Shown here piece by piece: positions 30,568 through 50,611 of a DNA stretch of 50,611 nt. The stretch covers positions 1 through 50,611 of the forward strand of contig QQVM01000024.1 in assembly GCA_003389385.1 (NCBI GenBank), read 5' to 3'. Position numbers and translations under genes: made by a program. The stretch is from Bacteroidota bacterium. GTDB lineage: Bacteria; Bacteroidota; Bacteroidia; AKYH767-A; 2013-40CM-41-45. Each line of letters begins with the position of its first letter. The first letter of the stretch is position 1. The notes under the pieces were generated by a model. That model did no database searches, was not told where the DNA came from, and saw only the letters and a program-made list of their open reading frames with translations.

Positions 30568-30611
30568 GCTTTTGAGGGATTGACTGATGTGCGATTTTTT
30601 GACTAAAAAAC

Positions 30612-30641
30612 TTGCAAGGAATTTTTTCTTTCATACATTTA
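30612..30641 (+). promoter_or_regulatory. Bacteroidota-type promoter for the sugar transferase/Wzi pair
   Basis: TTG (30612-30614), then exactly 19 bp, then TACATTTA (30634-30641), seven of eight matches to TAnnTTTG. This is the best-spaced promoter in the window. Transcription should start around 30648, leaving a leader of about 270 nt before the ATG at 30917. Confidence 0.6.
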
Positions 30642-30647
30642 CGCTAC

Positions 30648-30916: not shown

Positions 30917-32092
30917 ATGAAAAAGGGAAGCAGTAAAACAAGCAATGGGAGCAAATGGCTTGAGCGTTTCAGGCCAAATGGGCTATATAGGAATGCAACT
31001 TCCCTGGCTATGACTGCACCTGAGCTCAGAAGGTCCAAGAAGCGCAGGTTTCAACCAAAACCCCATCTTGAGAAGATTGGGGGAATGGACAAGCAGGTAA
31101 GAAGCTTCATTTCTGCACATTGTGAGTTAGCTTCGCCAGAAACATCTATCCTGCGAACTGCAATTGCGGAAAGCATACTTCACCTTTCAAAAAATTTCAA
31201 CACCATCATAAATCTGAAACGGATCAATGATGTAAAAGAAATAAACCGTTTTCTTCATGCGGTCAATCAGCATTTACCTGAAAACGGCAAGTTCATCGGT
31301 TGTGTGGAAACAAAATACCTTCGGAAAAGAAGAATCATGAGGAAGTTTCCTCCTGTGATTAACCAGCTTTACTACTTACTTGATTTCATCTTAAAGCGTG
31401 TATTCCCCAAACTTCCGGTCACTCGTTTTATTTATCTGAAATTAACCGGAGACCGGAACAAAGTTTTATCACGTACAGAAACTTTCGGCCGTTTGTATGC
31501 CGCAGGTTTCGAAATTTGCGAGCGAGAGTTCATTGGCAACAATCTTTATTTTATTGCTAAGAAGGTTAAGGAACCTTTGTTCAATTATGAACCTGTTTAC
31601 GGGCCAATTTTCAGAATGAGAAGGCACGGAAAGGATGGGCGCATCATACATGTATACAAGATGCGAACTATGCATGCTTACTCTGAATTCATTCAGCAGT
31701 ATGTGTATGAATGCAATAATCTGGCAGAAGGAGGGAAGTTGAAAGATGACTTCAGGGTATCGACACTCGGAAGATTTTTCAGAAAGTACTGGATCGATGA
31801 GCTGCCTATGATCATAAACTTTTTCAGGGGTGACTTGAAATTGATCGGTGTAAGGCCCCTGAGTTCACATTATCTTAGCCTGTATTCTCCTGAACTTCGC
31901 GAAAAACGTCTCAAACATAAACCCGGCCTTATTCCGCCATTTTACGCCGACATGCCGAAAACGCTGGAAGAGATCATGGAGTCTGAGTTGCGTTACCTTG
32001 ATGCCTATGAAAAAACAGGTTTCAGAGCGGACGTGAAATATTTTTTCAGGGCCCTTTACAACATCGTTGTGAGGAAGGCACGCAGTAAATAA
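30917..32092 (+). CDS. Priming sugar transferase (Bac_transf) with unusual N-terminal half
   Basis: A 391-residue protein. Residues about 218-391 are a bacterial sugar transferase domain (WcaJ/WbaP catalytic core): VYGPIFRMRRHGKDGR (227-242), VYKMRTM (246-252), FRVSTLGRFFRKYWIDELP (279-297) with the catalytic Asp-Glu in the last part, then LIGVRPLS (309-316). The membrane hairpin that normally precedes PxFFxQxRxG is not seen. Instead, residues about 98-216 resemble the C-terminal half of a SAM methyltransferase (EINRFLHAVNQHLPENGKFI, then a GF-x(n)-FIAKKVK ending). A moderately hydrophobic stretch at 151-177 may still bind membrane. It should load the first sugar phosphate onto undecaprenyl phosphate. 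Confidence 0.83.
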   Translation: MKKGSSKTSNGSKWLERFRPNGLYRNATSLAMTAPELRRSKKRRFQPKPHLEKIGGMDKQVRSFISAHCELASPETSILRTAIAESILHLSKNFNTIINLKRINDVKEINRFLHAVNQHLPENGKFIGCVETKYLRKRRIMRKFPPVINQLYYLLDFILKRVFPKLPVTRFIYLKLTGDRNKVLSRTETFGRLYAAGFEICEREFIGNNLYFIAKKVKEPLFNYEPVYGPIFRMRRHGKDGRIIHVYKMRTMHAYSEFIQQYVYECNNLAEGGKLKDDFRVSTLGRFFRKYWIDELPMIINFFRGDLKLIGVRPLSSHYLSLYSPELREKRLKHKPGLIPPFYADMPKTLEEIMESELRYLDAYEKTGFRADVKYFFRALYNIVVRKARSK

Positions 32093-34671: not shown

Positions 34672-37600
34672 ATGAAAAACGACAACTACCCAATTGCAAA
34701 AACACCGGGTTTCAATCGTTGGATGTTATTTGCAGGCATCATGATGGCAGGATTGTTTCTTTCTGCTGCTGTGATTGCTCAGCCAAATTACACCATGTCA
34801 ACCTTCACAGGCACTTATTCGCCACTAGGCGGTGGTGCTGTATCGTTGGTTGCAGGAACCGGAACTGGAAACCTTTCAACTTCCGGAGGTGCATCTAATG
34901 ATGATGACGGAACGGCTTACATTGCACTTCCGTTCACTTTCAATTACAACGGTACATTATTTTCCGCAACCACCAATTTCATAGGTGTTTGTACAAACGG
35001 TTTCGCCTACTTGTCAACCGACGGTACAAACACGACCAAGGTGACTACAGCTGGCAATAACCTTTCCAGCGGAACTGCAAGGATTATTGCACCGTGGTGG
35101 GATGACATGAAAGCTATCACCGCAGTAAACGGTATTTCTGGTACTATTAAGTACGAGACAAGCGGTACTGCACCTGACAGGGTTATGACTATTGAATGGG
35201 GTAACTATCCGGCTTATTTCACTGGCAGTGTAAAGGCACTTAATTTTCAGTTGAAGATTTATGAAAACGGACATAGTTCAAAAAGCAACCACATTGAATT
35301 CTGGTATGGTTCAGTGAATGATGTGGGTACTACACCTAATCAGTTTAGCACTTCAGAGACCGCATCAATTGGTTTGAAAAATGTAACAGGAGGTTTCGGA
35401 CAGTTCATCGATGCAGTTACAGGATCAACTCAAATGACTTCAACATTGATGAATAGCAATAAATTTCCCAGAAGGAATTTCTTGTTTGTACCTGGAGCAC
35501 CAACTGCCATTGCAGCCGGTACTTATACAGTCGGTGCAGGCGGTACATATAGTAACCTTTCATCTGCTGTGCGTGATCTGAATCATCGTGGCGTAAGCGG
35601 AGCAGTTACTTTAAGCCTGCTTGACGCTACATATGATACAAGCACCGCCGGCGGATCTAACATCTTCCCTATCCTCTTGGGTCCGATTGCAGGAACCAGC
35701 GCCAGCAATACTGTTACTATAGAGTCCAGCCTGGCTACTTCGACTCTGGCTTACAGAGGTAACACAAGCACCAGCGGTAACCTGATTACTGCTGCAAGCT
35801 CAACTCACCTGACAACCACTACGGAGCCCATCATTGGTATTATCGGATCCGACTATGTAACTCTTGATAAACTGACTCTGGTTCAGGCTACCGGAGCAGG
35901 TTCACACGTCGCTTCAGTAAAAAGAGGTCTGCAAATGACTAATGTCACCACAGCGGACGGAGCCACAAATAACACAGTAAAAAACCTTACCGTAACACTT
36001 GGAAAGAGCAATGTGTCCACATCAATTGTGGCTATTCAGTCCAGTATACTTGGCACACCGACAACAGGATCAAATAATTTCAATAAGTTTCTCGACCTTA
36101 ACATCACTGCAGCTGCGAGAGGAATCGAGCTGATCGGTAACTCAACTGTTCCTGATGACGGCAATGAAATCGGATCTTCCAGCCCGACAACTTTCAGCAT
36201 TATCGGTGCGGCAAACGATACAATCGGCGGTACAACATCAATCTCTACTCAAGGTATAACCGCCACAAGTCAAAAGAATGTAAAAATTTACAATAACCAT
36301 GTGCGCAACGTGATCTCCATTGCAACAATGGACGGTATCTTCCTGAATCTAGGACAGGGCATCTGCCAAATATATAATAATAAGGTAGAAAACGTAAGCA
36401 ATTACAGTACAACGTCTACATCATCTGCTACCGGTATTCGAGTAAACCTTGCCACATCCGGATCTCATGAATCTCGTGTATATAATAACTGGGTAACCGG
36501 AGTTACACGTGGATTCACAGGTACAGCTACTGCTTCCCGTTATGCTAAAGGCATACATGTTCAGAGTAACGGTTCAGGAACAGGCAGCACACACAGAATT
36601 GAATTCAACAGCGTAAGGATGGAGCTTCCGGCCGGTTATACCGGTTCGAGCGCTGCTTATGAAATAGGAACTACTTCCGGTGTTACAATCATTACTCGTA
36701 ACAACATTTTTGCTGATTTCTCTCCAGCACAGAGTGGTAATGCGCGTCATATGGCATTTTACAGCACCTCAGCGACTCTTATCGGAAATACAGGGTCACT
36801 CTCTGATTACAATGATCTTTATGTAGCAAATCTGACCAACGGATTTGTAGGAGTGGGTAACACCACTACATATACAGGTTTGACTGACTGGCAGAGTGCA
36901 ATGTCTTCTGACGCGAGTTCACTTAGTGTTGGTCCTGGCTTCACTTCTGAAACAGATCTGCACGCTTCTGCTCCAAGTCTGAACGGATCTGCTGATCCAT
37001 CCTATGCTACCAATTCCAGCTGGGTGACGGTAGATATTGATAACCAAACAAGACAACTCACCACAGATATTGGTGCTGATGAATTTACTCCTGCAACTAT
37101 AGACATGGGTGCTACTGCATTACTCAGTCCTGCATCAAGCGGATGTTTCAGCAATGCACATCCTGTGATAGTAAGAATTAGGAACTTTGGTTTGAATGAT
37201 ATTGATTTCTCAACCGATAATACAACCATCACAGTGAATGTTAGCAATGCTGTTACACAAACTCTCACGCTTACATTGACTGACAATGCACTTAATCCAG
37301 GCGGACTCCCGCTTGCTGTGGGATCTTCTATGGATGTAACTGTAGGCAACCTTGATATGTCCACATTAGGCACATATGATTTTACAGTAAGCACTTCAGT
37401 TGCAGGTGACGGAAATTCAGCCAATGATGCAGTGAGTCCCAATCCGTCTACTTTGGTGGCCGGTGTTGTGGCAGGTACTGCAAAGGCATCACCTAATTCC
37501 ATTTGTGCTACTGGCGGTCCTACACTCACATTAACCGGCGCATCTGCCGGTGCGAGTATTCAGTGGAAAGAGTCTTCCACATCTGGTGGACCTTATACAA

Positions 37601-40600
37601 ATATTTCTGGTGGGACCACCAATCCTTATGTTGTATCTAGCATCACTGCTCTCACATATTATGTAGCGGAAGTGACTTGTAACGGAACTGCAACATCAAA
37701 CCAGGATTCTGCAACTTATAATAACCCTGTGGTGTCGAGTGTAACAAATGGCACTCGTTGTGGTACCGGTACAGTTGAGTTGTCCGCCACAACCTCAGGA
37801 TCAGGCTTGAGTTGGTATGCGGCCCAGACAGGCGGATCACCATTGGGAACAGGTAATACATTCACTACCCCGGTGATAAGCAGCACTACATCTTTTTGGG
37901 TTGCAGCTAATGACGGAGGAACAACAACATCAGTAGGTCCACCAAATGAAGGTGGAGGTGGTAGCTATACTCTAGAGGCAGGATTGATTTTTGACGCATC
38001 AGTTCCATTTGTAATTGAAGGCGTTCACATTTATCCAATCGGAACAGGAGCAGGAACAGTGGAGATCATTCTTCGTGACCCATCTACAGCTATCATCGCA
38101 ACTTATATTTTCTCCGGAACGGGTACTGCAGCTCCTGGAATTAAAACATATGTTCCTATTAATTTCACGGTACCTGCTGCAGGAACAGGTTACAGTCTGA
38201 ACATGCTTCAGAGAACAGGTTCAATTGCTTCGCTTGCCCGAGATGGATCAGCAGCTATTGTTGGATCATTTCCGTTCACTATTCCTGGTGTTATGTCTAT
38301 AACTTCAGGTCGCTGTTGTCCGGCTGCTACTTCTACATCATATTATTATTTCTATGATTGGCAAGTGGCAACAGGTTGCGAAGGAACAAGATCAGAAGTA
38401 ATAGCAACAGTAACTGCGCCTCCTGCAATTAATGTATCAGCTTCAAATCCTACACTTTGTGCTGGCCAGTCTACGCAACTTAGCGTCAGCAGCGCAAATT
38501 CCAATTACCAATACCAGTGGTCTTCGTCTCCTGCCGGTTTTGACAGCACCGGAGCAGGTCCTTTCAGCGGAGTGAATCCAAGCCAGACTACTACTTATTC
38601 AGTTAATGCCATTGATACTGCAGTTGCTAGTCCCGATAGCGGATGTGCTACTACAGGATCTGTAGTTGTAACAGTTCATCCATTGCCATTGCCTCCAAGC
38701 ATTGTCCCAAGTGCACCTATTTCTGTGTGTGCAGGACAAAGCGTGGAGTTAATCGCTAATCTGACTGCGCCTCCATCACAGTTCACTGTGGGAACACAGT
38801 CCGGAACAATTGGCGGTTCTGACGGAAACCCATATCGTTCAGGTAATGGAGCCGGAAACCAGGTAAGAGCACAAGTGCTTTACACTGCAGCTGAGTTAAG
38901 TGCAGCAGGTCTAACGGCAGGTTATCTGACCGGCGCAGGCTTCACTGTGACCAGCGTATCTGCTTCAACCATTTCAATGGATGAGTGGGAGTTCAAGATT
39001 GGCACCACATCAGCCACTTCTCTGACTACTACTTTTGAAACTACACCTTTGACAACCGTCCACACTCAGGCTACAGGTTTCCACCCTCCTGTGGGCGTAA
39101 ACATCCATCCTTTCAGTGCACCATTCTTCTGGAACGGAACATCGAATATTCTTATAGAGACATGTCAGAGAAACAATTTGATCGGAACGCATACTGTAGC
39201 GGTATATGCACCTGGCTTTACATCCAATTCTCACCGTGCCGGAAGTGCTACAAGTTGTACTAATCCATCAGCGGTGAATATTGCTAACAAGCCTGTAATC
39301 ACATTTGAAAGATTAAATTCAGTAGTGGGTGTGGTTGACTGGACTTCAATTCCAGCAGGCTTTACGGCCACTTCTGATACAATCAATACAGGTGCTTTAA
39401 GTACAAGCACCACTTTCGTAGCAACAGTAACCGATACAAACGGTTGTTCTAATTCAAGCAGCAAGCTGATCACAGTTCACCAGAATCCGGTCGCTTACAA
39501 TGTAAGTGGTGGTGGCACCATGTGCGAAGGTGATCCTGGTTTCAGTATCACTTTGGATGGATCAGAAACCGGAATCAGCTACCAGCTTGTTCTGAATGGT
39601 TCCACCAACATTGGCAGTCCTCTTGCAGGCACCGGAAGTCCGCTTAATTTCGGAACTTTCACAGATGCAGGCACATATACTGTGATTGCAAGTACTTCGA
39701 CAAGTCCGGTTTGTAACACCACAATGAGCGGTTCAGCAGTGATAGTAGTAAATGCATTACCTACTGCTACCGTAACCGGCGGAGGAACAGTTTGCGACAC
39801 GCAGACGAATCCTGATGTTACGATCGCTCTTACAGGAACTGCACCTTGGGACATCACTTATTTTGATGGAAGTACTTCGACGACAGTAAACGGAATCAAT
39901 TCCAGTCCTTATGTGATCTCTGCGGCAGCTGCCGGTACTTACACAGTTACCAATGTTACAGATGCTACCACATGTGTGAACACTGGCAGCGGATCCGCAA
40001 CTGTAACGGTCATCACTACTGTTCCGGTAAGCGTTACAATCAATGCAACAGCAAACAATATTTGTGACGGAACCAATGTAACATTCACTGCCACCCCGGT
40101 TAATGAGGGTGGTTCACCTGTATATCAGTGGAAATTGAATGGAACCAATGTAGGTACCAACAGTGACACATATTCATCTTCAACACTTGCTGATAATGAT
40201 CAGGTAACTTGTGAGTTAACTTCTTCGCTTCCTTGCGTTAGCGGAAATCCTGCTACATCTAACACTATCACAATGACAGTGTTTGCAAATGCGGCAGTAA
40301 GTGTTGTTATCTCTGAGTCATCAAACAATATTTGCCAGGGCGATAATGTGACCTTTACCGCAGTTCCTACTAACGGCGGTGTTACACCTTCCTATCAGTG
40401 GCAGGTGAATGGCACTAATGTCGGACTTGACCAGGATACATATTCATCCACTTCACTCAATAACGGTGATGTGGTGACTTGTATACTTAATTCTTCAATT
40501 ACTTGTACCACAGGAAATCCAGCTACATCGAACAGCATAGTGATGTCTGTAAATCCGGTGCTTCCTGTGAGCGTTTCTATCGCTGCTTCACCCGGAACTG

Positions 40601-43600
40601 ATATCTGTTCCGGAACCTCTGTAACATTCACAGCCACACCGGTAAATGGTGGAAGCACTCCTTCTTACCAGTGGAAAGTGAACGGAACCAATGTCGGAAC
40701 TGACTCTGATACTTATACAACTACATCTCTCAATGACCAGGATGTAGTGACTTGTGAGCTTACGTCAAATGCGGCTCCTTGTGCAACCGGAAATCCTGCA
40801 ACTTCAAATTCAATTACAATTACAGTTTCAGGTGCTGTGCCTGTGAGTGTAAGCATTGCAGCTACTGCCTCAACTATCTGCGATGGTACCAATGTGACAT
40901 TCACTGCAACACCTACAAACGAAGGAAACACACCTTCCTATCAGTGGCAGGTGAATGGAACGAATGTTGGTCTTGACCAGACGACTTATTCTTCCAGTAC
41001 TTTGGCGAATGGAGATTTGGTAACTTGTATTCTTACTTCCAGCCTGACTTGCGGAACAGGCAATCCTGCCACTTCCAATACAATCACAATGGCAGTAAAT
41101 CCAAATCTTCCTGTCAGCGTGACTATCGCTGAATCGGCAAACCCTGTTTGCGCAGGAGACAATGTTACATTCACTGCTGTGCCTACCAATGGCGGTGCAA
41201 CTCCATCTTATCAGTGGAAAGTGAACGGATTCAATGTTGGAACGAACAGTGATACTTATGTTTCCTCAACACTTACCAATGGAGATGTGGTAACTTGTGA
41301 ACTTACTTCATCAGAGATTTGTACTTCAGGAAATCCTGCTACTTCAAATTCTGTGACCATGACAGTTAATCCACTTCCTGATGCTACTATCACTCCAAGT
41401 GGACCAACCACATTCTGCACAGGTGGAAGCGTGACCTTGAGCGCTGAGCCTGGTCTGACCTATCTCTGGTCTCCAGGAAATGAAACCAGTCAGTCGATTC
41501 TTGTCACTACCGGAGGAACATACTCATTATTGGTTACCGACGCAAATAACTGTACAAATTCAAATTCGACCAATGTGATTGTTTCCGATTACCCAACTGC
41601 TTCTATCAGCGGTGACATCGATGTTTGTCCTGGCGAAATCGCACCACTGACAGCCACAGCCACAGCAGGTTCTGGAACAATCGCTTCTTACCAGTGGGTA
41701 TTGAACGGTTCGACCAATGTTGGAACTAACAGCGACACATACAATGCAACTGTAGGCGGAAGCTATACCGTGATTGTAACAAACTCACACGGTTGCTCAG
41801 TAACATCTGCCGCTCACGTAGTGACAGAGTTCAATGGTCCAATGGCTGGAACATACACTGTTGATGCGGGTTCAGCTGCAAGCTGCACTAACTTCACAAG
41901 CCTCGCGTTCGCTGTTCAGAATTTGAACACACGCGGACTTGCAGGCAATGTAACAATAGATGTTCTTGCAGGCCATACTGAAACAGCTCCTGCAGGAGGA
42001 ATTACACTTGATCAGTGTGCCCTTGGAGCGGGACTTAAATCCGGCGCTTCACAGACCATAACCATCCAGAAGAGTGGGGCAGGAGCAAATCCTGTGATTA
42101 CGGCTGGAACAGGGGTTGGTGCGTTCGATTTCATTTTCGCGATTCAGGGTGCTGATTATGTAACAGTGGACGGAATTGATCTGCAGGCTAATCCAGCCAA
42201 TACTACTGCCAGCGAAAAAGCAGAGTCTGGTTATCTTATAGTGAAATGTTCTGACACAGACGGATCACAGTTTGTTACGATCAGAAATTGTGCTGTTACA
42301 CTTGATAAGAGCAATTCAAATGCTTCAACCGGTATTTACCAGGCGAGTGCAACAATCACTACTCCACTGCTGACATTCATTGGAACAAGCAGCCTTGCCG
42401 GTGCGAACTCAAACAATACTTATGTAAACAATACAGTCAGTAACTCATACAATGGTATCGTTCTATCAGGTTATGCTGATGCTGCACCATTCACATTCTA
42501 CGATCAGGATAATAAAATTGGTATGACAGGAATGGGTAATACCATTTCTAACCTGGGAGGTGGAAGTTCCATCACCTATGGTATCTATTCAGACTACCAG
42601 AATAATCTTTCAATCCGTGACAATAATGTAAATACAGGTGCGAATGCAGGAACAGGTATCATCCGCGGTATCCATCACGGTGTTGCCAGAAACGCCACGT
42701 CTGAGGTTGTGAATAATACAATCACAATCCAGGCAAGTGCAGCTACAACAAACCAGTGCATTGCGCTTGCAACATTTGCGGGTTCACGTGAAGGACGTCC
42801 TGCATCAGACGGAATCAATAATACTGTATCCATTCTGAATAATACTATCCAGAACAGCACTTATCCTGCTGACGGTACAAATGACCTCTGGCTTATCTTC
42901 AGCGGTAAGTCATCTCTTGACTCACTTTCTGCGAGAAACCTCTTCATCTCAGGAAACCAGCTTGTGAACAATACAAGTTCTTCCAACAATGCCAGCGGAT
43001 CCATGTATGGTATTATTCACCAGATCATCGCTGATTCCTGCCGCATTGAAAACAACAATATCAGCAACAATACTGCGAACGGAAACGTGGCACATAGGTT
43101 GCGTCTGCTGATTACAGGATGGGGTGGTTCCTCTGTTGCTAACTATTCACAGAAACTTTATGTGAATGGAAACACGGCTAATGCAAACAGTACGAATTCT
43201 ACAACTGCAGCATTCGACGGATTCCTTTGTGAGTCTTATACATCTGCAAGTCCAATGCAGGGTGTTCTTGAAATGAAGAACAATACCATCACCAACATGA
43301 CATTTGCTGCACAGACTACAGGAGCATTCACAGGTATATCTGCTTCTGCCCCAACTACATCAACTGTTAATATAGATGTAGACATGAGTGGAAATACTGT
43401 TTCGAATATTACTCGTACTACTGCAACTACAGGCGCATTCAATGGTATCCGCTCACTCGGAACATCAAGAATCACTTCAGTGGTAATGGATAATAACACC
43501 CTTTCTGGAATATCACAGCCTGCAGCGACCACTAGTGTGGTGAATGGTATCACTTCCGGTGGTTCCTCAACAGTAACCACTACTGTGTCAATGAGCAACA

Positions 43601-46600
43601 ACCAGGTTATGAATTTTGTAACCAACGGTACCGGTACTCTTACATTGATGGATGCCGGACTTGGTGTTACACTTACAGTAAATGGCAATACTGTCAGCGG
43701 TAACCAGCGTACCGGTGCAAGTGGAACAACATATTGCATCAGGGCTTCTACATCACAGATTACCTTTAACGGCAATACAATTACCAATAACTCGCATACC
43801 AATACTAGCGGAACATCTGCTTCAAGCTTGTACGGATATTACAACTTTGGCTCGCCAACTCTGGAAAATATCACAAATAATAATGTGAACAATCTGAGTT
43901 TGTTGGGAACCAACACTTCCACGTCTAGCTTGATTTATGGATTATATTCAAATACTACCGCCTCTGCAACAAAGATTATCAGCGGGAACACAGTGCATAC
44001 ATTGACCAGCACTCTGCCTGGATCAATCCACGGCATGCATTGGGCTCTCGGTACGGATGTGAATGTATTCAAGAATAAGGTCTACAACCTTGCATCCAGT
44101 ACTACAAGCACCACAACTAATGTGTATGGTATTCATATTGCATCTGGTTCTGCCAATGTGTACAATAACATTGTTGGTGATCTGAGAGCTGAAGCATCTG
44201 CTTCTACCGATGCGATCCGCGGTATAAGTGTGGCTTCTACGACAACTAGTTCAAACATTAATATCTATCACAACAGCATACGACTTGATGGTACATCTAC
44301 CGGAACCAACTTCGGTACATCCGGTATTTACACCACCACAAGCACTTCAGCTACTACTGCAGCACTTGATCTTAGCTATAACATCGTAATCAACCTTACT
44401 ACTCCGAAAGGAACCGGAAGGGCAGCGGCGTATCGCAGAAGTTCAACTACTCTTACCAACTTCACGAACGCTTCCAACAGGAATATCTACTACGCAGGAA
44501 CTCCTGCAACAAACAATGTGATATTCTTTGACGGAACCAATGCTGACCAGACTCTTGCGGCATACAAGACAAGAGTGTCTCCGAGAGAAGCAAATTCTTT
44601 CACTGAAAACAGCGTATTCCAGAGTGTGGTAAGTTCTGATGCAAACTTCCTCAAGTTGAGCCTTTCTTCTGCGACATTCGCAGAAGGCGGAGCAGTTCAG
44701 ATCACTTCACCTCCGATTACGGATGACTATTTCGGAACACTACGTTCTACCTCAGCTCCTGATATCGGTGCACATGAGGATAACTTCCTTGGTGTTCTGC
44801 CTGTTCTCAGCAACCTGACCATTACTCCGTCAGCGCCTCAGTGTTCTTCAGTGGCTCATACTGTAACTGTAGATGTTACAAGTCCGGTTTCATCTCCGAT
44901 TACTGCTGTATGGCTGTTCTTCCAGCCGACCGGCGGAGCGCTTGACAGCGTTCAGATGACCAATACCAGTGGAAACACATATCAAGGCACCATTCCTGCA
45001 AAAGGAGATTCTATTGTGACCTGGTGGGTGAGAGCGACAGACAGTCAGCCTTATAACTCCTTCAGTGCAAATGCTACTTATCAGGATGCTTATTTAGGTA
45101 CACTTGCATTCAATGTGAATGCGGATCCAAATCCAATGTGTCTTGGTGAAACAACTGATCTGAGTGCATTGCTGATCGCGCCGAATCCGGCACAGATTGG
45201 TACTGCTACCACTACTACTTCAACTTACCCATACTATCGTTTATATGGCTCATCAAAAACTCAGATGATGTACCGTGCAAATGAGTTGACTGCTGCCGGT
45301 TTGGTAGCAGGTGATATTACAGCACTTGGGTTTGATGTGACGTCAGCGCTTACTAATATGCCAAATGTTACAATCGCACTTAAGAATTCATCCAACAACA
45401 CATTGCCGGATTTCGAAACAGGCATGACAACGGTATACACTGCCGCGGATTTCATTCCAGTTGTGGGTGTAAATATGCACCAGTTCCAGACTCCGTTTAA
45501 CTGGAACGGAACTTCCAATCTCATTGTGGAATTCTGTTTCGAGAATAATGATGCGGGTGGTTCTTCATCAACCGTTCGTTACAGCAATCCTGGATTTGCC
45601 GCTACATATAAGCGTTATATGGATAACAATCCTACTTTCTGTTCTAACCCAACAGCAGGAACTGTAAGTTCATCATCTACCATCCGTCCAAACCTCTTCA
45701 TTGCACAGCCACAGCCGGGAATTACATATACCTGGTCTTCTACCAGCACTGATGCAGGCCTGAATGCCAGCAGCGGTTCAAATGTAACTGCTACACCAAC
45801 TGGAATAGGAGTTATTGTTTATGATGTACTGGCTACAGACGGAAACGGATGTACTGTAAGCAACTCAGTGAGTGTAACAGTAAATTCAGTTCCATTAGCT
45901 CCATCTGGAACTAATTCCACGCAGTGTGGTATTGCTATTCCGACAGCTTCTGTGAGTTCCAATAATTCACCAAGCGGCACCTTCATGTGGTATGACGCTG
46001 CGAGTGGCGGAACATTGCTTCAGACAGGCGGTACCAGCTATGCTTCACCAATTTCTTCGCCTACAAACTTCTATGTATCAGAAGAGATTAATGGTTGCGA
46101 AAGCACCAGGACACTTGTATTTGCAGACGTGACTGCGCCTGATCCAGTAACAATTGTAATCACTCCGGATACAATCTGTCTTGGAACAACAGTTACGATT
46201 CAGGCACAGAGTACTAACACTAATTATGCATATATCTGGTCAGCGGCTACAGAAGCTGGTTTGTCCGGAAACACAGGAAGCAATATTACAGCGACTCCTA
46301 CCGAAGCAGGTGATTTTACAATCAGTGTGAGCGCCGATGACGGAAGCTGTTTAACTAGTGCAAGCAATACACTTGTAGTGAAGCCTTATCCTTCTGCGGT
46401 TGCTCTTGGAAACGATACCACTGTATGTCCGGGTTCAAGTGTTATCCTTCATGCTGATCTTCTTACAGGCAGTGGTGCATTCAAGATTTCTGAGGTGATC
46501 CTGTTCTATACAGGAACCGGAAGCCAGTCAACTAAGCCTGCATATATTGTTCAGACAGACGACTTCATCGAAATTACCAATGCATCTACTGTTGCTGGTG

Positions 46601-49600
46601 ATCTTAGCGGTTATACTTTGAATTATCAGCTAACTACCGGTACACCTGCCGCGAAGACTTTCCCTAATGGTACAATTGTTCCTGCCGGAGCTGTTGTGGT
46701 AGTCTATATCGGAACTGCTGCTGAAGATCCTGCTAATCTCTACTTCAGTCTGGGCGGCTCTACCCCTGGATCAGGAAGTGCGATGGGTATCTGGTTAAAG
46801 GATCCTTCCAACAATGTTGTTGACGCAATCGCCCTGAATACTTATTCAGGATTCCCTGCAGGTTCTGGTGTGACAGCAGCAGACTGGAATCTATCTGCCA
46901 ATATTTCAAGTCCGACCAGTTCTGCAGGTCCGCGTCTTGAAGGTGCAGATATGAATGACAATACAAACTGGGTGTCTTCACACCTTGTGCCGACGACTTC
47001 TATCGGTTATACAAACCCTGGAATTCCTCTGGCTCCGCCTCCAGGCAGCTTGTCCTGGTCATCTATTCCTGCAGGCTTCACTGCTTCAGGAAATGATGTA
47101 AACACAGGTCCGATCAACAGCGCTACAACCTTTGTTGTTGTAAATGACAACGGATTCTGCCAGACTTCTGACACCATCGTTGTGAATACATTTACTCCGC
47201 TACCTGCACCAACAGCAACCAATTCGTCACAATGTGGTGTAGGTGTGCCAACCTGTTCTGTGTCCACCAGCGGATTCATCATGCGCTGGTATCTGACTCC
47301 AACCGGAGGCACACCACTGGCTGGTGAATCAAGCACAAGCCTTGCATCTTATAGCATCAGCACTACAACTACATTCTATGTGTCTGAATTTGACGGATCA
47401 TGTGAAAGCGACCGCACTCCTGTTACTGCAACGGTTGCGTCAGCTGATGCAATAACAGTTTCTGGAACTCCATCAATGGTATGTCCTGGCGAAACTGTGA
47501 CTTTAACCAGCAATAATAACAGCGGTCCTCTTAACTATACTTATACCTGGAATGCCAACCCTGTTTCTGGAAGTGGCATGCCAAGTCCTGTTGTAGATTC
47601 AACAGTTATTGTTACTCCAACATTGTCGGGTACCTACTACTATGTTGTAACAGCAAATGATGCAGCTGCCGGTTGTACAGTAGTTGACAGTGTTGAAATT
47701 ACTGTGAAACCACGTCCGGTAATCAGTGGAATCTCTGTGAGTCCGTCTGAATCTGTTTGTTCAGGTACAACTGTTACATTGACTGCTGCATCTACCTGTA
47801 ATGTTCCAGGAAATGCATTCGTGGGTAATGGTACCAGTTCTAACGGAGCTCAGGCATTTCCAGCTCCATATGGTAACTACTATTGGGGTGCGCGTCATCA
47901 GATGCTGATTAAGGCTGCTGATATGACCGCTGCCGGTTTTGCTGCCGGAAATCTGACAAGCATTGCATTTGATAATGATGCACTCAACAGCGTTCCTGCA
48001 CTCACTAATTTTACCATCAGTATGAAGCTTGCTTCTTTGGCTAGTATCATAGGTTTCGAAACAGGTCTGACTCAGGTTTACACTGCTTCGAGTTATACAC
48101 CTGTGGTTGGAGTCAATACTCACACATTCAGTACTCCTTTCTTCTGGAATGGAACTTCAGATATTGTGATTGAGACTTGTTTCAATAACTCTGGCTTCCT
48201 TACAAACGGAAATGCAAGTACTAAATACACTACAACAGCATACACTTCTGTTGTATTCTACAGAGCAGACAATGCAACAGTGTGTGGTACTTCAACAGTT
48301 TCCGGTACTTCAGCAAATCGTCCTAACATGGGCTTCAATGGCACCATCGCCGGTACGGGCGCATGCGGTCTTAACTGGGTATGGAATCCGGGAAATGTAA
48401 GTGGAAACGTACTTACTGTAACTCCAAGTGTTAACACGACCTACACAGTTACAGCTACCGATCCTATTACAAACTGTACTACGGACAGCAGCAGAACAAT
48501 AGAAATCATCACTACTGTACCTACACCTGTAATTACTTCAAGTACCAACTTGATTTGCAACAGCGGATCCGTTACTCTTAACATGACAAATGCCCTGCAA
48601 GGAGTAAATCACCAGTGGCAGAATTCTTCAGATGGCATCAGCTGGTCTGACATTCCTTCTGCAACAAATGATTCATATACTGCAACAATCAACAGCTCTA
48701 CTTATTTCAGAGTTTACAGCGGATGCGCAAGTGCAGACACTTCGAATGTTGAGTATGTACAGGTTGATGTTCCTACTGTGTCAGCATCTGGTGTTACAAG
48801 ATGCGGTCCTGGCCCGGTTAATCTGACTGCTACCGGTAACGGAACCTTCAGCTGGTATACAGTGTCTACAGGAGGTACTGCAGTTGCAACAGGAAGCACT
48901 TATTCGCCAACCGTTTCTTCAACAACTACATTCTATGTTGAATCTGCAATCGGTGCTTGTATAAATGCAGGCGGCAGGGTGGCAGTAGTTGTTACTGTAA
49001 CAACTCCTCCGACTGTAAGTATTGCTTCAAGCCCTGGTACAAGTATTTGTAACGGTTCTTCTGTAACACTGACTGCAAGCAGCAGCAATGATCCTGACTA
49101 TACTTACAATTGGAGCGTAGATCAGACTACTGTCTTCGCAACAGGAGCAGTTCAAACTGTATCTCCGACTGCAAACACTACATACTATGTCTATGCAGTT
49201 GACAGCTCTAATGGTGCTAACCACGGTTGTGCCGCAGTAGCCAGCCAGTTGATCACAGTATTGCCGGTTCCTGCCACACCATTGATCAGCCCTGCAAATC
49301 CTGCAGTTTGTTCAACAGGTGGTTCTACTACACTGACTATTTCAAATCCTGAAATCAATCAGGGAACCAAGACTTTTGGCAACCAGACTTCTAGCAGTTC
49401 TACCGGTGCTCCTTACAGGAATGGTTTGTCAGCTGGTACCCGTGTGCAATATCTCTATACAGCGAGTGAGTTGAGCTCATCCGGTATCACTTCTGGTAAC
49501 CTGCTTTCTGTAGGCTTCAATGTGGTATCTGCAGGATCTGGTAGTATTGATCTGACTATACGTCTGAAAGCGACTAATACTGCTTCACTTGCTACTACTT

Positions 49601-50611
49601 TCGAAACAGGCACATTCACAACTGTGTATACTGCTACAGGATACACTGTGACTGCAGGATTGAACACTCATACCTTCAGTTCACCATTCTTCTGGAATGG
49701 TACTTCCAATATCATTGTTGAAGTATGTCAGGTGACAGTTACTACAGGTAGTTCGCCAACTGTTTCTATGTTCAGTATTGGCAGTTCCAGCACTTATTCG
49801 ACTGTAACTAACCCATGTGTAGCGACAACCGGTACAGCTGGAACAAATCGTCCAGTTACAACCATCGGCTACAATAGCTCCAATACATATGTATGGCAGC
49901 CGGGTGGTCTTACCGGAGTGTCAGTTTCTGTATCGCCTACCAGCAATACAACTTACACTGTAACAGCAACCAATCCTGTTGGATGTACTTCCAGTAACAG
50001 CGTACTGGTTGTATACGAGCCTGTGACAGTGCCGACAATCACACCTTCCGGTCCGACTACATTCTGTCCTGGTGAATCTGTAACCCTTGATGCCGGTGCA
50101 GGATATACCAACTATAACTGGTCTGACGGATCAACTGTGGTAGGAAACAGCCAGACTCTGCTGGTGTCACCATCAGCTACAACAACCTACACCGTTACAG
50201 TTGACAATGGCGGTATCTGTACTCAGTCTGCCAGCCAGACGATTACAGTTCATCCTTTCACTCAGCCGGTTATCAGTGCTGATAATCCAAGCATTTGTCT
50301 TGGCCAGGAAACAGCTACACTGACTCTGAATGACTCCTATGCCAGCTATCTGTGGTCTCCAGGAGGTGAAACCACTTCCAGCATCACTGTTAGCACAGGT
50401 GGCACATACAGTGTCAGCGTAACTGCTGCTAACGGCTGTTCTGGCTCTGCCAACATCAACATCATCGGCAAGTTTGTGCCTCCAGTTCCTTCAGTGACTC
50501 CGGTTGGTCCTATCAACCTATGTTGGGATGGCTCTACGGATGCAACAGCTGTTCTTACTGTGGATACTACAGGTGCGGGTCCTGGTGCCAGCATCCTTTG
50601 GAACGACCTCT
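34672..50611 (+). CDS. Giant multidomain surface adhesin, 5' part (3' end outside window)
   Basis: One frame without a stop runs from the ATG at 34672 to the window edge, at least 5,313 codons. Residues 1-36 are a signal peptide (basic start, hydrophobic WMLFAGIMMAGLFLSAAV, cleavage near IAQ). In order: a beta-sandwich (about 40-275), a parallel-beta-helix region (about 282-807, ending IGADEF), a CARDB-like domain (about 812-923), many Ig-like/CHU_C-type domains, five 90-residue Ig repeats (40021-41373), a second longer beta-helix (41850-44770, ending IGAHE), then further Ig-like domains with globular domains inserted in them, including one like a lamin tail domain. No catalytic motif was seen. 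A secreted adhesin, probably exported by T9SS with a C-terminal signal outside the window, is the best call. Confidence 0.93.
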   Translation, partial: MKNDNYPIAKTPGFNRWMLFAGIMMAGLFLSAAVIAQPNYTMSTFTGTYSPLGGGAVSLVAGTGTGNLSTSGGASNDDDGTAYIALPFTFNYNGTLFSATTNFIGVCTNGFAYLSTDGTNTTKVTTAGNNLSSGTARIIAPWWDDMKAITAVNGISGTIKYETSGTAPDRVMTIEWGNYPAYFTGSVKALNFQLKIYENGHSSKSNHIEFWYGSVNDVGTTPNQFSTSETASIGLKNVTGGFGQFIDAVTGSTQMTSTLMNSNKFPRRNFLFVPGAPTAIAAGTYTVGAGGTYSNLSSAVRDLNHRGVSGAVTLSLLDATYDTSTAGGSNIFPILLGPIAGTSASNTVTIESSLATSTLAYRGNTSTSGNLITAASSTHLTTTTEPIIGIIGSDYVTLDKLTLVQATGAGSHVASVKRGLQMTNVTTADGATNNTVKNLTVTLGKSNVSTSIVAIQSSILGTPTTGSNNFNKFLDLNITAAARGIELIGNSTVPDDGNEIGSSSPTTFSIIGAANDTIGGTTSISTQGITATSQKNVKIYNNHVRNVISIATMDGIFLNLGQGICQIYNNKVENVSNYSTTSTSSATGIRVNLATSGSHESRVYNNWVTGVTRGFTGTATASRYAKGIHVQSNGSGTGSTHRIEFNSVRMELPAGYTGSSAAYEIGTTSGVTIITRNNIFADFSPAQSGNARHMAFYSTSATLIGNTGSLSDYNDLYVANLTNGFVGVGNTTTYTGLTDWQSAMSSDASSLSVGPGFTSETDLHASAPSLNGSADPSYATNSSWVTVDIDNQTRQLTTDIGADEFTPATIDMGATALLSPASSGCFSNAHPVIVRIRNFGLNDIDFSTDNTTITVNVSNAVTQTLTLTLTDNALNPGGLPLAVGSSMDVTVGNLDMSTLGTYDFTVSTSVAGDGNSANDAVSPNPSTLVAGVVAGTAKASPNSICATGGPTLTLTGASAGASIQWKESSTSGGPYTNISGGTTNPYVVSSITALTYYVAEVTCNGTATSNQDSATYNNPVVSSVTNGTRCGTGTVELSATTSGSGLSWYAAQTGGSPLGTGNTFTTPVISSTTSFWVAANDGGTTTSVGPPNEGGGGSYTLEAGLIFDASVPFVIEGVHIYPIGTGAGTVEIILRDPSTAIIATYIFSGTGTAAPGIKTYVPINFTVPAAGTGYSLNMLQRTGSIASLARDGSAAIVGSFPFTIPGVMSITSGRCCPAATSTSYYYFYDWQVATGCEGTRSEVIATVTAPPAINVSASNPTLCAGQSTQLSVSSANSNYQYQWSSSPAGFDSTGAGPFSGVNPSQTTTYSVNAIDTAVASPDSGCATTGSVVVTVHPLPLPPSIVPSAPISVCAGQSVELIANLTAPPSQFTVGTQSGTIGGSDGNPYRSGNGAGNQVRAQVLYTAAELSAAGLTAGYLTGAGFTVTSVSASTISMDEWEFKIGTTSATSLTTTFETTPLTTVHTQATGFHPPVGVNIHPFSAPFFWNGTSNILIETCQRNNLIGTHTVAVYAPGFTSNSHRAGSATSCTNPSAVNIANKPVITFERLNSVVGVVDWTSIPAGFTATSDTINTGALSTSTTFVATVTDTNGCSNSSSKLITVHQNPVAYNVSGGGTMCEGDPGFSITLDGSETGISYQLVLNGSTNIGSPLAGTGSPLNFGTFTDAGTYTVIASTSTSPVCNTTMSGSAVIVVNALPTATVTGGGTVCDTQTNPDVTIALTGTAPWDITYFDGSTSTTVNGINSSPYVISAAAAGTYTVTNVTDATTCVNTGSGSATVTVITTVPVSVTINATANNICDGTNVTFTATPVNEGGSPVYQWKLNGTNVGTNSDTYSSSTLADNDQVTCELTSSLPCVSGNPATSNTITMTVFANAAVSVVISESSNNICQGDNVTFTAVPTNGGVTPSYQWQVNGTNVGLDQDTYSSTSLNNGDVVTCILNSSITCTTGNPATSNSIVMSVNPVLPVSVSIAASPGTDICSGTSVTFTATPVNGGSTPSYQWKVNGTNVGTDSDTYTTTSLNDQDVVTCELTSNAAPCATGNPATSNSITITVSGAVPVSVSIAATASTICDGTNVTFTATPTNEGNTPSYQWQVNGTNVGLDQTTYSSSTLANGDLVTCILTSSLTCGTGNPATSNTITMAVNPNLPVSVTIAESANPVCAGDNVTFTAVPTNGGATPSYQWKVNGFNVGTNSDTYVSSTLTNGDVVTCELTSSEICTSGNPATSNSVTMTVNPLPDATITPSGPTTFCTGGSVTLSAEPGLTYLWSPGNETSQSILVTTGGTYSLLVTDANNCTNSNSTNVIVSDYPTASISGDIDVCPGEIAPLTATATAGSGTIASYQWVLNGSTNVGTNSDTYNATVGGSYTVIVTNSHGCSVTSAAHVVTEFNGPMAGTYTVDAGSAASCTNFTSLAFAVQNLNTRGLAGNVTIDVLAGHTETAPAGGITLDQCALGAGLKSGASQTITIQKSGAGANPVITAGTGVGAFDFIFAIQGADYVTVDGIDLQANPANTTASEKAESGYLIVKCSDTDGSQFVTIRNCAVTLDKSNSNASTGIYQASATITTPLLTFIGTSSLAGANSNNTYVNNTVSNSYNGIVLSGYADAAPFTFYDQDNKIGMTGMGNTISNLGGGSSITYGIYSDYQNNLSIRDNNVNTGANAGTGIIRGIHHGVARNATSEVVNNTITIQASAATTNQCIALATFAGSREGRPASDGINNTVSILNNTIQNSTYPADGTNDLWLIFSGKSSLDSLSARNLFISGNQLVNNTSSSNNASGSMYGIIHQIIADSCRIENNNISNNTANGNVAHRLRLLITGWGGSSVANYSQKLYVNGNTANANSTNSTTAAFDGFLCESYTSASPMQGVLEMKNNTITNMTFAAQTTGAFTGISASAPTTSTVNIDVDMSGNTVSNITRTTATTGAFNGIRSLGTSRITSVVMDNNTLSGISQPAATTSVVNGITSGGSSTVTTTVSMSNNQVMNFVTNGTGTLTLMDAGLGVTLTVNGNTVSGNQRTGASGTTYCIRASTSQITFNGNTITNNSHTNTSGTSASSLYGYYNFGSPTLENITNNNVNNLSLLGTNTSTSSLIYGLYSNTTASATKIISGNTVHTLTSTLPGSIHGMHWALGTDVNVFKNKVYNLASSTTSTTTNVYGIHIASGSANVYNNIVGDLRAEASASTDAIRGISVASTTTSSNINIYHNSIRLDGTSTGTNFGTSGIYTTTSTSATTAALDLSYNIVINLTTPKGTGRAAAYRRSSTTLTNFTNASNRNIYYAGTPATNNVIFFDGTNADQTLAAYKTRVSPREANSFTENSVFQSVVSSDANFLKLSLSSATFAEGGAVQITSPPITDDYFGTLRSTSAPDIGAHEDNFLGVLPVLSNLTITPSAPQCSSVAHTVTVDVTSPVSSPITAVWLFFQPTGGALDSVQMTNTSGNTYQGTIPAKGDSIVTWWVRATDSQPYNSFSANATYQDAYLGTLAFNVNADPNPMCLGETTDLSALLIAPNPAQIGTATTTTSTYPYYRLYGSSKTQMMYRANELTAAGLVAGDITALGFDVTSALTNMPNVTIALKNSSNNTLPDFETGMTTVYTAADFIPVVGVNMHQFQTPFNWNGTSNLIVEFCFENNDAGGSSSTVRYSNPGFAATYKRYMDNNPTFCSNPTAGTVSSSSTIRPNLFIAQPQPGITYTWSSTSTDAGLNASSGSNVTATPTGIGVIVYDVLATDGNGCTVSNSVSVTVNSVPLAPSGTNSTQCGIAIPTASVSSNNSPSGTFMWYDAASGGTLLQTGGTSYASPISSPTNFYVSEEINGCESTRTLVFADVTAPDPVTIVITPDTICLGTTVTIQAQSTNTNYAYIWSAATEAGLSGNTGSNITATPTEAGDFTISVSADDGSCLTSASNTLVVKPYPSAVALGNDTTVCPGSSVILHADLLTGSGAFKISEVILFYTGTGSQSTKPAYIVQTDDFIEITNASTVAGDLSGYTLNYQLTTGTPAAKTFPNGTIVPAGAVVVVYIGTAAEDPANLYFSLGGSTPGSGSAMGIWLKDPSNNVVDAIALNTYSGFPAGSGVTAADWNLSANISSPTSSAGPRLEGADMNDNTNWVSSHLVPTTSIGYTNPGIPLAPPPGSLSWSSIPAGFTASGNDVNTGPINSATTFVVVNDNGFCQTSDTIVVNTFTPLPAPTATNSSQCGVGVPTCSVSTSGFIMRWYLTPTGGTPLAGESSTSLASYSISTTTTFYVSEFDGSCESDRTPVTATVASADAITVSGTPSMVCPGETVTLTSNNNSGPLNYTYTWNANPVSGSGMPSPVVDSTVIVTPTLSGTYYYVVTANDAAAGCTVVDSVEITVKPRPVISGISVSPSESVCSGTTVTLTAASTCNVPGNAFVGNGTSSNGAQAFPAPYGNYYWGARHQMLIKAADMTAAGFAAGNLTSIAFDNDALNSVPALTNFTISMKLASLASIIGFETGLTQVYTASSYTPVVGVNTHTFSTPFFWNGTSDIVIETCFNNSGFLTNGNASTKYTTTAYTSVVFYRADNATVCGTSTVSGTSANRPNMGFNGTIAGTGACGLNWVWNPGNVSGNVLTVTPSVNTTYTVTATDPITNCTTDSSRTIEIITTVPTPVITSSTNLICNSGSVTLNMTNALQGVNHQWQNSSDGISWSDIPSATNDSYTATINSSTYFRVYSGCASADTSNVEYVQVDVPTVSASGVTRCGPGPVNLTATGNGTFSWYTVSTGGTAVATGSTYSPTVSSTTTFYVESAIGACINAGGRVAVVVTVTTPPTVSIASSPGTSICNGSSVTLTASSSNDPDYTYNWSVDQTTVFATGAVQTVSPTANTTYYVYAVDSSNGANHGCAAVASQLITVLPVPATPLISPANPAVCSTGGSTTLTISNPEINQGTKTFGNQTSSSSTGAPYRNGLSAGTRVQYLYTASELSSSGITSGNLLSVGFNVVSAGSGSIDLTIRLKATNTASLATTFETGTFTTVYTATGYTVTAGLNTHTFSSPFFWNGTSNIIVEVCQVTVTTGSSPTVSMFSIGSSSTYSTVTNPCVATTGTAGTNRPVTTIGYNSSNTYVWQPGGLTGVSVSVSPTSNTTYTVTATNPVGCTSSNSVLVVYEPVTVPTITPSGPTTFCPGESVTLDAGAGYTNYNWSDGSTVVGNSQTLLVSPSATTTYTVTVDNGGICTQSASQTITVHPFTQPVISADNPSICLGQETATLTLNDSYASYLWSPGGETTSSITVSTGGTYSVSVTAANGCSGSANINIIGKFVPPVPSVTPVGPINLCWDGSTDATAVLTVDTTGAGPGASILWNDL
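35515..37090 (+). repeat. Parallel beta-helix region 1 of the giant adhesin
   Basis: It begins AAGTYTVGAGGTYSNLSSAV and ends DIGADEF. In between are many short strand-turn units with Asn ladders (VKIYNNHVRNV, CQIYNNKVENV, RVYNNWVTGV), typical of right-handed beta-helix (pectate-lyase-like) folds. The same start and end motifs bracket a second region at 41850-44770, so the module has been duplicated. Confidence 0.75.
37910..38370 (+). other. Inserted domain in a CHU_C-type Ig host
   Basis: The host Ig domain reads TTSFWVAA and then, about 150 residues later, ATGCEGTRSEVIATV. An uninterrupted sister domain at about 46030-46130 reads TNFYVSEEINGCESTRTLVFADV. The intervening part holds a beta-sandwich (GLIFDAS, VEIILRDPS, GTGYSLNML, YYYFYDW). 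Confidence 0.7.
38764..39330 (+). repeat. Nested beta-sandwich domain, copy 1 of 4
   Basis: Inserted after SVCAGQSVELIANL of an Ig host, which resumes at VDWTSIPAGFTA. Shared core: YTAAELSAAGL, TTTFET, VGVNIHPFSAPFFWNGTSN and IETCQRNN. It has the same frame of landmarks as the copies near 45178, 47800 and 49345. Confidence 0.8.
40021..41373 (+). repeat. Five tandem Ig-like repeats of about 90 residues
   Basis: Units begin at about 40021, 40291, 40561, 40837 and 41107 (periods 270, 270, 276 and 270 bp). The shared core is P-x-S-V-x-I, NICxGxxVTFTA, PSYQWxVNGTNVG, DTYSS and GNPATSN. Each unit has Cys near its start and two further Cys (VTCxL and xxCxTGN), giving likely disulfides. DNA identity is lower than in the 153-bp array at the left end of the window, so this array is older. 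Confidence 0.92.
41850..44770 (+). repeat. Parallel beta-helix region 2 of the giant adhesin
   Basis: It starts MAGTYTVDAGSAASCTNFTS, close to the start of region 1, and ends PDIGAHEDNF. Nearly a thousand residues consist of short repeated coils with Asn/Thr/Ser turns (LEMKNNTITNM, VVMDNNTLSGI, VNGNTVSGN, FNGNTITNN). It is about twice as long as region 1, so coils were added after the duplication. Confidence 0.75.
45178..45720 (+). repeat. Nested beta-sandwich domain, copy 2 of 4
   Basis: Inserted after MCLGETTDLSALLI of an Ig host, which resumes at ITYTWSSTSTDAG. Core: RANELTAAGLVAGDITALGF, DFETGMTTVYTA, VVGVNMHQFQTPFNWNGTSN and EFCFENN. Confidence 0.8.
46460..47046 (+). other. Lamin-tail-like domain nested in an Ig host
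   Basis: After TVCPGSSVILHADLL the sequence reads FKISEVILFYTG, DFIEITNAS, DLSGYTLNY, PAGAVVVVYIG and GIWLKDPSNNVVDAI. This is the order of conserved blocks in lamin tail domains (EI..Y...FIELYN....LSGW.L...). The host resumes at LSWSSIPAGFTAS. Confidence 0.7.
47800..48360 (+). repeat. Nested beta-sandwich domain, copy 3 of 4
   Basis: Inserted after SVCSGTTVTLTAAS of an Ig host, which resumes at CGLNWVWNPGNVS. Core: QMLIKAADMTAAGFAAGNL, GFETGLTQVYTA, VVGVNTHTFSTPFFWNGTSD and IETCFNN. Confidence 0.8.
49345..49875 (+). repeat. Nested beta-sandwich domain, copy 4 of 4
   Basis: Inserted after AVCSTGGSTTLTIS of an Ig host, which resumes at NTYVWQPGGLTG. Core: YTASELSSSGITSGNLLSVGF, TTFETGTFTTVYTA, GLNTHTFSSPFFWNGTSN and VEVCQ. 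Confidence 0.8.

Follow-up and report, generated by a model that had tools for sequence, protein, structure and literature searches.

The last open reading frame of a 50,611-nucleotide contig from a Bacteroidota bacterium (GenBank QQVM01000024.1, assembly GCA_003389385.1, forward strand; genome 3.36 Mb) encodes a giant protein in which complete globular domains are nested inside single immunoglobulin (Ig)-like domains. Six such cargo domains are found in this contig, which was analysed in its entirety and is hereafter called the window; each enters its Ig-like host at a defined loop, and collinear sites in related proteins hold different cargo. We consider it likely, with a probability of roughly 0.7, that the gene encodes a giant surface protein whose split Ig-like stalk offers loop sockets for exchangeable cargo and holds binding heads off its axis. 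The protein would be exposed at the cell surface, where the heads may project sideways and bind a ligand, probably a glycan.

Complete domains nested in Ig-like hosts

A first host profile, built from 10 uninterrupted Ig-like domains of the window protein, finds the intact domains and, in addition, the half domains flanking each insert. A second profile was built from 151 uninterrupted domains recovered with the first, and once the insert is cut out it reads every split host of the window as one domain (6/6). In the domain maps, which were made with HMMER without filters, the window protein exhibits 26 host domains, six with cargo and 12 intact at a score of at least 20 bits, and the order of the inserts is B, A, A, lamin tail domain (LTD), A, A (Table 1). 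Five inserts enter at host residues 23–27 and one, insert B, at host residue 72 of 81. Given how strands follow one another in an Ig domain, these junctions correspond to the BC and FG loops, respectively, which lie at the same pole of the domain.

An earlier note, made from the sequence alone, had placed six globular inserts within Ig-like hosts, describing four as copies of one family and one as lamin tail-like. These proposals are borne out: the four insert A copies are 37–42% identical to copy 1, and the LTD insert by itself scores 49.3 bits (E 7.4e-13) against the Pfam LTD profile (cut-off 34.3). Uninterrupted hosts, which the note had named as a confirmation, are present both in the same protein and elsewhere. 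Its fixed entry point is not the only one: the BC loop is used at five sites, and the first insert has an Ig_7 host that it enters at the FG loop. Likewise, the proposed exit motif C-x-G-x(3-5)-L-x-A and the restart W-x-x-x-P/S are each found at four of the five BC sites, whereas the last site reads CSTGGSTTLTIS and WQPGG, respectively. Neither the four A copies nor the window insert B match anything in Pfam over the curated cut-offs. A copy of insert B from a same-genus genome (G001) has sub-cut-off matches to DUF7907 (E 0.0015) and DUF4082 (E 0.033). Further hits of the inserts in Pfam, Decapeptide among them, were under the cut-off and were set aside, as were matches of insert A to DotG/IcmE, which fall at or near an AAELxAAGLxAG stretch and were regarded as repeat-like chance similarity.

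Among the gathered loci, the gap between host halves is bimodal, with 113 gaps shorter than 40 amino acids (aa) and 54 distinct gaps of 60–300 aa, mostly 160–220 aa; 16 of the 183 pairs were set aside as another first half lay between. The 54 long gaps include three artefacts spanning a whole intact domain (two in locus L120, one in the G001 frame ORF2 described below), one case in the CD loop (L011) and one span that starts one domain early (L014). Intact counts in this survey were not de-duplicated, and as most loci were chosen for their insert A or B content, the splitting rates are biased.

A stricter test joins the two flanks of an insert and asks for a single host. Insert A is represented by 168 distinct hits in 128 records, 166 of which have sufficient flank, and 64 of these 166 pass; when the downstream flanks were shuffled, five runs gave 1, 0, 0, 0, and 0 passes. 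Among the passing hits, the junction lies at host positions 21–27 (of 79) in 55 cases, at 60–65 in seven, and at 16 and 31 in one case each. Moving both cuts by 10 aa leaves 15 of the 64 passes on the N side and 48 on the C side, and moving them by 20 aa leaves 4 and 16. A control combining the N flanks of nested hits with the C flanks of failed hits still passes in 6–14 of 64 cases; it is not clean because the strict test misses true cases, part of the failed set being nested by eye. A test based on motifs alone gave 70 BC cases among the 168 hits with an average of 21 for shuffled flanks and was considered too noisy, so that only the profile test was used. For insert B, 1 of 32 hits passes, which is attributed to the short piece of about 12 residues following the FG loop.

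Two AlphaFold2 models were built. Model 1 (window 47446–48744, aa 4259–4691; 39-row alignment) comprises an intact PKD-like domain, the host with its insert A, and the next domain. Its mean predicted local distance difference test score (pLDDT) is 85.0 and its predicted template modelling score (pTM) 0.68; most of the host and of the insert exceeds a pLDDT of 90, and the last domain is unreliable. Residues 110–126 of this model form a single strand leading from the host B strand toward the insert. Model 2 (window 37714–38421, aa 1015–1250) comprises an Ig_7 domain with insert B and is based on a 19-row alignment, 14 rows of which are intact Ig_7 domains (mean pLDDT 83.1, pTM 0.67).

The best structural matches of the hosts are Ig domains of GhpA, the grappling hook protein A, which has a prey-catching function. 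In model 1, two consecutive GhpA Ig domains (3832–3993) align within residues 1..357 over 151 residues (3.5 Å, Z 8.9), and by the aligned lengths the second must sit on the split host. In model 2, the best match (GhpA Ig 2062–2146, within residues 2..236) covers 83 residues at 1.8 Å (Z 11.2), which is about the combined length of both flanks, so that the flanks are predicted to form one Ig fold. Single Ig domains of eight GhpA chains align within residues 1..236 in the same manner (79–83 residues, 1.8–2.0 Å, Z 10.1–11.2). As the aligner reports only the ends of the aligned range, skipping of the insert is deduced from these lengths. Furthermore, intact Ig_7 homologues align across the junction of host 1. 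The earlier note had named two separate flanking domains in predicted structures as the outcome that would speak against it; in both models the flanks are instead predicted to form one split Ig fold, and the joined flanks read as one host, in agreement with its view that growth is not by simple beads on a string. Plain Foldseek yielded zero matches for model 2 at E ≤0.001, and no known split-Ig adhesin was recognised among the Foldseek and VIA-align matches listed, which is no evidence of absence.

As for the cargo, insert A (model 1, residues 118..303) resembles the N-terminal part of a carbohydrate esterase (7toh; 157 residues, 3.5 Å, Z 10.4) and the lectin-like domain of Cwp84 (4d59; 149 residues, 3.8 Å, Z 9.9). 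Insert B (model 2, residues 70..221) resembles the PHR domain of BTBD2 (3no8; 140 residues, 3.2 Å, Z 12.2) and, again, Cwp84 (Z 9.3).

The overall architecture of the protein is one of Ig-like arrays interspersed with other folds. By eye, the N-terminal end contains a stretch resembling a signal peptide, and two regions (about aa 285–800 and 2390–3370) have the look of a parallel beta-helix. These helix-like stretches, at window 35500–37100 and 41842–44800, set the Ig arrays apart, which fill the space between them and after the second one. Ig_7 (PF19081) exceeds its curated Pfam cut-off in four of five scanned segments (47.4–131.9 bits; cut-off 27.3), accompanied in some of them by PKD-like and Ig-like families, and the Pfam scan of the segment covering the second helix-like region (41842–45111) returned zero families. 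Five similar PKD_3/Ig_3-like repeats are observed at window 40030–41370 (aa 1787–2234).

Table 1. Split hosts, nested inserts and further features of the giant reading frame, in window coordinates.
Feature	Coordinates	Strand	Basis or remark
Giant reading frame, 5313 aa, 3' end open	34672..50610	+	Contig stops at 50611
Host 1 (Ig_7), portion preceding FG loop	37726..37929	+	Pfam Ig_7 profile 4–67 of 84; host profiles; AlphaFold2 model 2
Insert B, jelly-roll-like, FG loop of host 1	37942..38358	+	Host profile; AlphaFold2 model 2; G001 matches
Host 1, G strand (CEGTRSEVIATV)	38362..38412	+	Alignment with intact Ig_7 domains
Uninterrupted host of the same family (aa 1251–1335), one of several	38422..38676	+	52 bits
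Host 2, portion preceding BC loop	38695..38775	+	Host profiles
Insert A copy 1	38776..39309	+	Sequence comparison of copies; host profile
Host 2, portion following BC loop	39310..39477	+	Host profiles
Host 3, portion preceding BC loop	45115..45183	+	Host profiles
Insert A copy 2	45184..45705	+	Sequence comparison of copies; host profile
Host 3, portion following BC loop	45706..45885	+	Host profiles
Host 4, portion preceding BC loop	46396..46464	+	Host profiles
Lamin tail domain insert (LTD, PF00932); tail may extend to about 47040	46465..46986	+	Pfam; host profile
Host 4, portion following BC loop	47050..47184	+	Host profiles
Host 5, portion preceding BC loop	47737..47808	+	Host profiles; AlphaFold2 model 1
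Insert A copy 3	47809..48339	+	Host profile; AlphaFold2 model 1
Host 5, portion following BC loop	48340..48501	+	Host profiles; AlphaFold2 model 1
Host 6, portion preceding BC loop	49285..49362	+	Host profiles
Insert A copy 4	49363..49875	+	Sequence comparison of copies; host profile
Host 6, portion following BC loop	49876..50013	+	Host profiles

Cargo families and their entry loops

Both unnamed cargo families of the window are widespread among its relatives, insert A being present in 49 and insert B in 52 of 61 genomes (relatives and the window's own genome). In the genome collection, 149 stretches matched insert A; the best 79 loci were kept and are mostly from Bacteroidota, with some from Cloacimonadota, Calditrichota and Ignavibacteria, while two of them bear gammaproteobacterial names. 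These two (L010 and L038) contain nested insert A and belong to a complete genome labelled Glaciecola amylolytica and a gammaproteobacterial metagenome-assembled genome; horizontal transfer, a wrong label or contamination could each account for them. By eye, insert A also seems to occupy the FG loop of PKD_3/Ig_3-like hosts at six further loci (L020, L024, L073, L094, L095, and L098).

Seven kinds of cargo are found in the BC loop: A, LTD, GEVED, choice-of-anchor J, B, an unnamed type E, and a nidogen-like domain (L103), which is so called from its appearance; the last three occur once each. GEVED occupies this loop in the G001 frame ORF1 (which is also L087), in L134 and, partly as judged by eye, in L014, and choice-of-anchor J does so at two sites in L008. 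That a host loop accepts unrelated cargo, as the earlier note had suggested, is strengthened further by the signs of cargo exchange described below.

Insert B is sited differently. Well over 100 hits are listed, and the flanks were surveyed for 35 of them that lie in retrieved loci; in 34 of these 35 hits an Ig_7 part ending at position 60–70 of 79 lies directly upstream, although a few of these parts score only 8–14 bits. A strict C-x-S-x-R-like restart follows downstream in 24 of the 35. The single exception to siting in the FG loop is the copy in G001 ORF2.

The CD loop is entered by an unnamed insert (alignment A3), which is present in 8 of the 61 genomes, appears L-type-lectin-like by eye, and is without a match in Pfam, NCBIfam and the PDB sequences. 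Five of 12 cases pass the joined-host test, with the insert at host positions 37–44, and two of the seven others look like the same CD site by eye. Its hosts at loci L009, L011, L040, L135, and L137 are of the Ig_7 and PKD-like types.

A further mode of nesting is observed at seven loci (L123, L124, and L126–L130), where a circularly permuted insert A, second half first, lies inside a lamin tail domain near the N terminus. The Pfam LTD match is broken at profile position 74 of 109, and with the insert excised it reaches 100–106 (4 of 7 loci tested). The seven loci look like one protein family and may go back to a single event. Insertion demands that the two ends of a head lie together, which fits the occurrence of circularly permuted A copies in lamin tail domains. 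Additionally, A-like matches adjoin a stretch of LamG-type appearance (by eye) at loci L107–L113, where the frames are mostly 1160–1190 aa long (two are 894 and 1052 aa).

Cargo at collinear sites of related proteins

The same-genus genome G001 contains two related frames, ORF1 (5900 aa) and ORF2 (6265 aa), both measured from stop to stop. ORF1 carries seven cargo domains, six of which were placed in a host by script while the seventh has only its downstream host half recognised; all eight cargo domains of ORF2 lie inside hosts. At the collinear site following the second helix, the cargo is A in the window, GEVED in ORF1 and A in ORF2. The last site holds A, A, and B, respectively, and is flanked on both sides by rank-1 partners in the comparisons of the window protein with ORF1 and with ORF2. 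At the first Ig_7 site, B in the window stands against A in ORF2 in the same loop, and the site thereafter holds A versus E, with a host pair of merely seventh rank. At the other ORF1/ORF2 sites the kind of cargo is kept (three A/A, one LTD/LTD). The G001 counterpart of the LTD insert reaches only 16.9 bits, which is under the Pfam LTD cut-off.

Cargo also diverges where its kind is kept. At one collinear pair within G001, the preceding domain is 77% identical, the host halves 73% and 76%, and the following domain 68%, while the A cargo is 33% identical; at a neighbouring pair the cargo is 68% identical. The host halves are less similar at the A/B site (50% and 53%) and at the GEVED/A site (29% and 41%), which provide weaker evidence. 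Conversely, cargo may be more similar than its surroundings. The window insert B shares 88% aa identity with its G001 copy even though the two lie in different loops of different host types (FG in the window, BC in ORF2). At the DNA level, an ungapped block at 37931–38363 is 73.2% identical over 433 bases and has ends near those of the insert; within the compared 51.6 kb of G001, the gene has no better DNA match. For comparison, 16 intact collinear domain pairs between the window protein and ORF2 average 47% identity with a maximum of 71%. Similarly, window A copy 2 is 71% identical to an ORF2 cargo domain, whereas their hosts are 38% identical.

Across 14 A-bearing sites, the identity of the host is not correlated with that of its cargo (r 0.08, one-sided permutation P 0.30), while it is correlated with that of the preceding domain (r 0.44, P 0.001). 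Judging from these sequence comparisons, hosts and their neighbours appear to have stayed in place as cargo was replaced or moved from site to site, and exchange would be the probable cause.

Reading of the split stalk and comparison with known systems

In the proposed mechanism, the array of Ig-like domains (Pfam Ig_7, PKD-like) would form a stalk extending from the cell. The chain would exit an Ig fold at a fixed loop, fold a complete second domain, and return to complete the Ig fold, so that the host loop would act as a socket that can be occupied by unrelated cargo families. Several putative binding heads would in this way be held off the axis of one stalk, each with its ends on the stalk side. 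The modelled cargo is similar to jelly-roll domains, lectin-like ones among them, which makes service as binding heads its likeliest function, and both this fold and the precedent of RTX adhesins suggest that it probably binds sugars. More tentatively, and with less than even odds, the BC, CD, and FG loops may constitute a socket code, i.e., docking sites with cargo preferences of their own between which recombination passes binding domains while the plan of the stalk is kept; the permuted A copies in lamin tail domains would then represent the same exchange with a new entry point.

Other explanations account for parts of these data. It is extremely unlikely that the flanks are separate small or partial domains and each insert is just the next bead on a string. 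Pfam alone does see fragments, for example an Ig_7 match ending at profile position 67 of 84, but the joined flanks score as one host, the passes drop as the cuts are shifted, single solved Ig domains cover both flanks, and intact homologues align over the junction. A view that accepts the nesting and takes the cargo for a stiffener or spacer, or for a neutrally kept domain that binds nothing, is unlikely as well but deserves more weight than any other rival. Inserts A and B are unnamed, a jelly-roll fold need not mean binding, and the position of insert B after the FG-loop part of Ig_7 in nearly all surveyed hits is like that of a fixed compound domain. On the other hand, the cargo varies at a site with a conserved stalk, a pattern more in keeping with selection for binding than for stiffness, and the inserts emerging from split Ig domains of RTX adhesins include proven sugar binders, as described in passages of two studies (PMC10865825, PMC12077191).

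Distinctly less probable than structural cargo is an origin of the cargo differences in the duplication and divergence of repeat units and the loss of domains rather than in exchange. The array does consist of similar units, the window A copies are only 37–42% identical, so that ancient paralogy could mimic exchange, and the host pairing between the window protein and G001 is weak in places, including the GEVED/A site. Against duplication stand the G001 site where divergent cargo sits between well conserved host halves and neighbours, the 88% identical B inserts in different loops of different host types, and the last site, which has rank-1 partners on both sides and holds A, A, and B in three proteins. 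About equally improbable is a prey-catching hook or filament like GhpA in place of an adhesin with ligand-binding heads. GhpA Ig domains are not only the best structural matches of the hosts; GhpA is also the sole match of the Ig_7 profile among the PDB sequences at E ≤0.1 (E 0.0012). However, an Ig stalk is common to many surface proteins, and GhpA is absent from the three PDB sequences that match the insert A profile up to E 1.

Several observations weigh against the preferred reading of a split stalk with exchangeable binding heads. The strict nesting test is failed by 102 of the 166 insert A hits, 30 of which lie within 70 aa of the start of an open frame and 72 elsewhere; by eye, some of the failing hits are nested and some are not, and window copy 3 is among the failures yet nested in the domain map. 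The structural matches of the cargo share only 5–16% identity, and a common fold says nothing on function. The correlation between host identity and that of the next domain is weak, too (r 0.23, P 0.06). Many cargo-bearing hosts of the window rank third to seventh against G001 and are not mutual best matches. Rank 1 is reached in the comparison with ORF2 alone, at the first Ig_7 site and at the last one, and collinearity between the window protein and G001 therefore leans on the neighbours. In all three proteins, the cargo-bearing domains of the second half are separated by two intact Ig-like domains, with three before the last, and because this unit of two intact domains followed by a split one recurs, part of the four window A copies may stem from repeat-unit duplication. 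The exchange argument draws on three proteins, which two genomes of a single genus encode. Lastly, the C terminus of the window protein is cut, and in ORF1, its complete relative, the last 300 aa are without a match in Pfam (E 0.01) or NCBIfam (E 0.05), sorting domains included.

Export through the type IX secretion system is nevertheless plausible because its translocon protein SprA is present in the genome (2654.9 bits, cut-off 200; 0/14 control genomes). A 552-aa protein encoded at window 3586–5244 has a weak Por_Secre_tail match (25.6 bits, cut-off 27) and is a possible type IX substrate. The giant gene lies downstream of a polysaccharide-synthesis region (window 6193–8643 and 28318–32092) with Wzz/GNVR/AAA_31, hexapeptide transferase, DUF354, and bacterial sugar transferase genes; this neighbourhood would fit a role at a polysaccharide surface and proves nothing.

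It is customary to read a giant adhesin as domains strung in a line, and profile annotation then yields broken stalk halves and misses the cargo, as is the case here. If the proposed reading is true, a search for split Ig domains could reveal binding domains in many unannotated surface proteins of Bacteroidota, and anyone constructing multivalent display proteins would have naturally occurring insertion points to draw on. The reading also predicts, in a form open to testing, how a surface protein can alter its binding target with the stalk unchanged.

Among known systems, the Ig domains of GhpA from Aureispira (PDB 9flp and related entries) are the closest solved relatives of the hosts, with 20–28% identity. 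In integrin beta, an I-like domain is inserted in the Ig-like hybrid domain, so that a binding domain is likewise nested in an Ig-like domain; this system is eukaryotic and has a single fixed insert, for which we know of no exchange. A close parallel is provided by the RTX adhesins (FrhA, MpIBP, AhLap) of Vibrio, Aeromonas, and Marinomonas, where Ig-like stalk domains split in sequence project sugar-binding or other domains that bud away from the stalk axis, according to passages of the two studies cited above (PMC10865825, PMC12077191). Parts of one of them describe how ligand-binding domains were recognised by their emergence from split domains (PMC12077191), and its main text contains zero occurrences of the term “Bacteroid-”. 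Both systems share a sequence-discontinuous Ig-like domain enclosing a complete domain, which in the present case is supported by predicted structure and profiles, and, as far as these passages describe them, more than one split domain per giant adhesin. The RTX adhesins use type I secretion. The hosts here are of the Ig_7 and PKD-like families and show signs of cargo exchange at fixed sites. The exit also differs: in one AhLap split domain the chain passes from the first strand into the insert, as described in part of that study (PMC12077191), whereas here it leaves after a conserved B-strand motif (five sites) or before the G strand (one site), and in relatives at the CD loop. Fibrillar adhesins, in turn, recombine ligand-binding domains, GEVED included, with many kinds of stalks, as stated in passages of another study (PMC10952558); for these domain-shuffled adhesins (CshA NR2 and GEVED), the passages describe domains arranged side by side, whereas here the shared GEVED domain and other cargo are nested in a stalk domain. 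No report of nested cargo in Ig_7 stalks of Bacteroidota was found in the open-licence literature searched. The principle of the split Ig-like domain is known; what this literature lacks are the loops used, the families of host and cargo, and the evidence that cargo is exchanged at fixed sockets.

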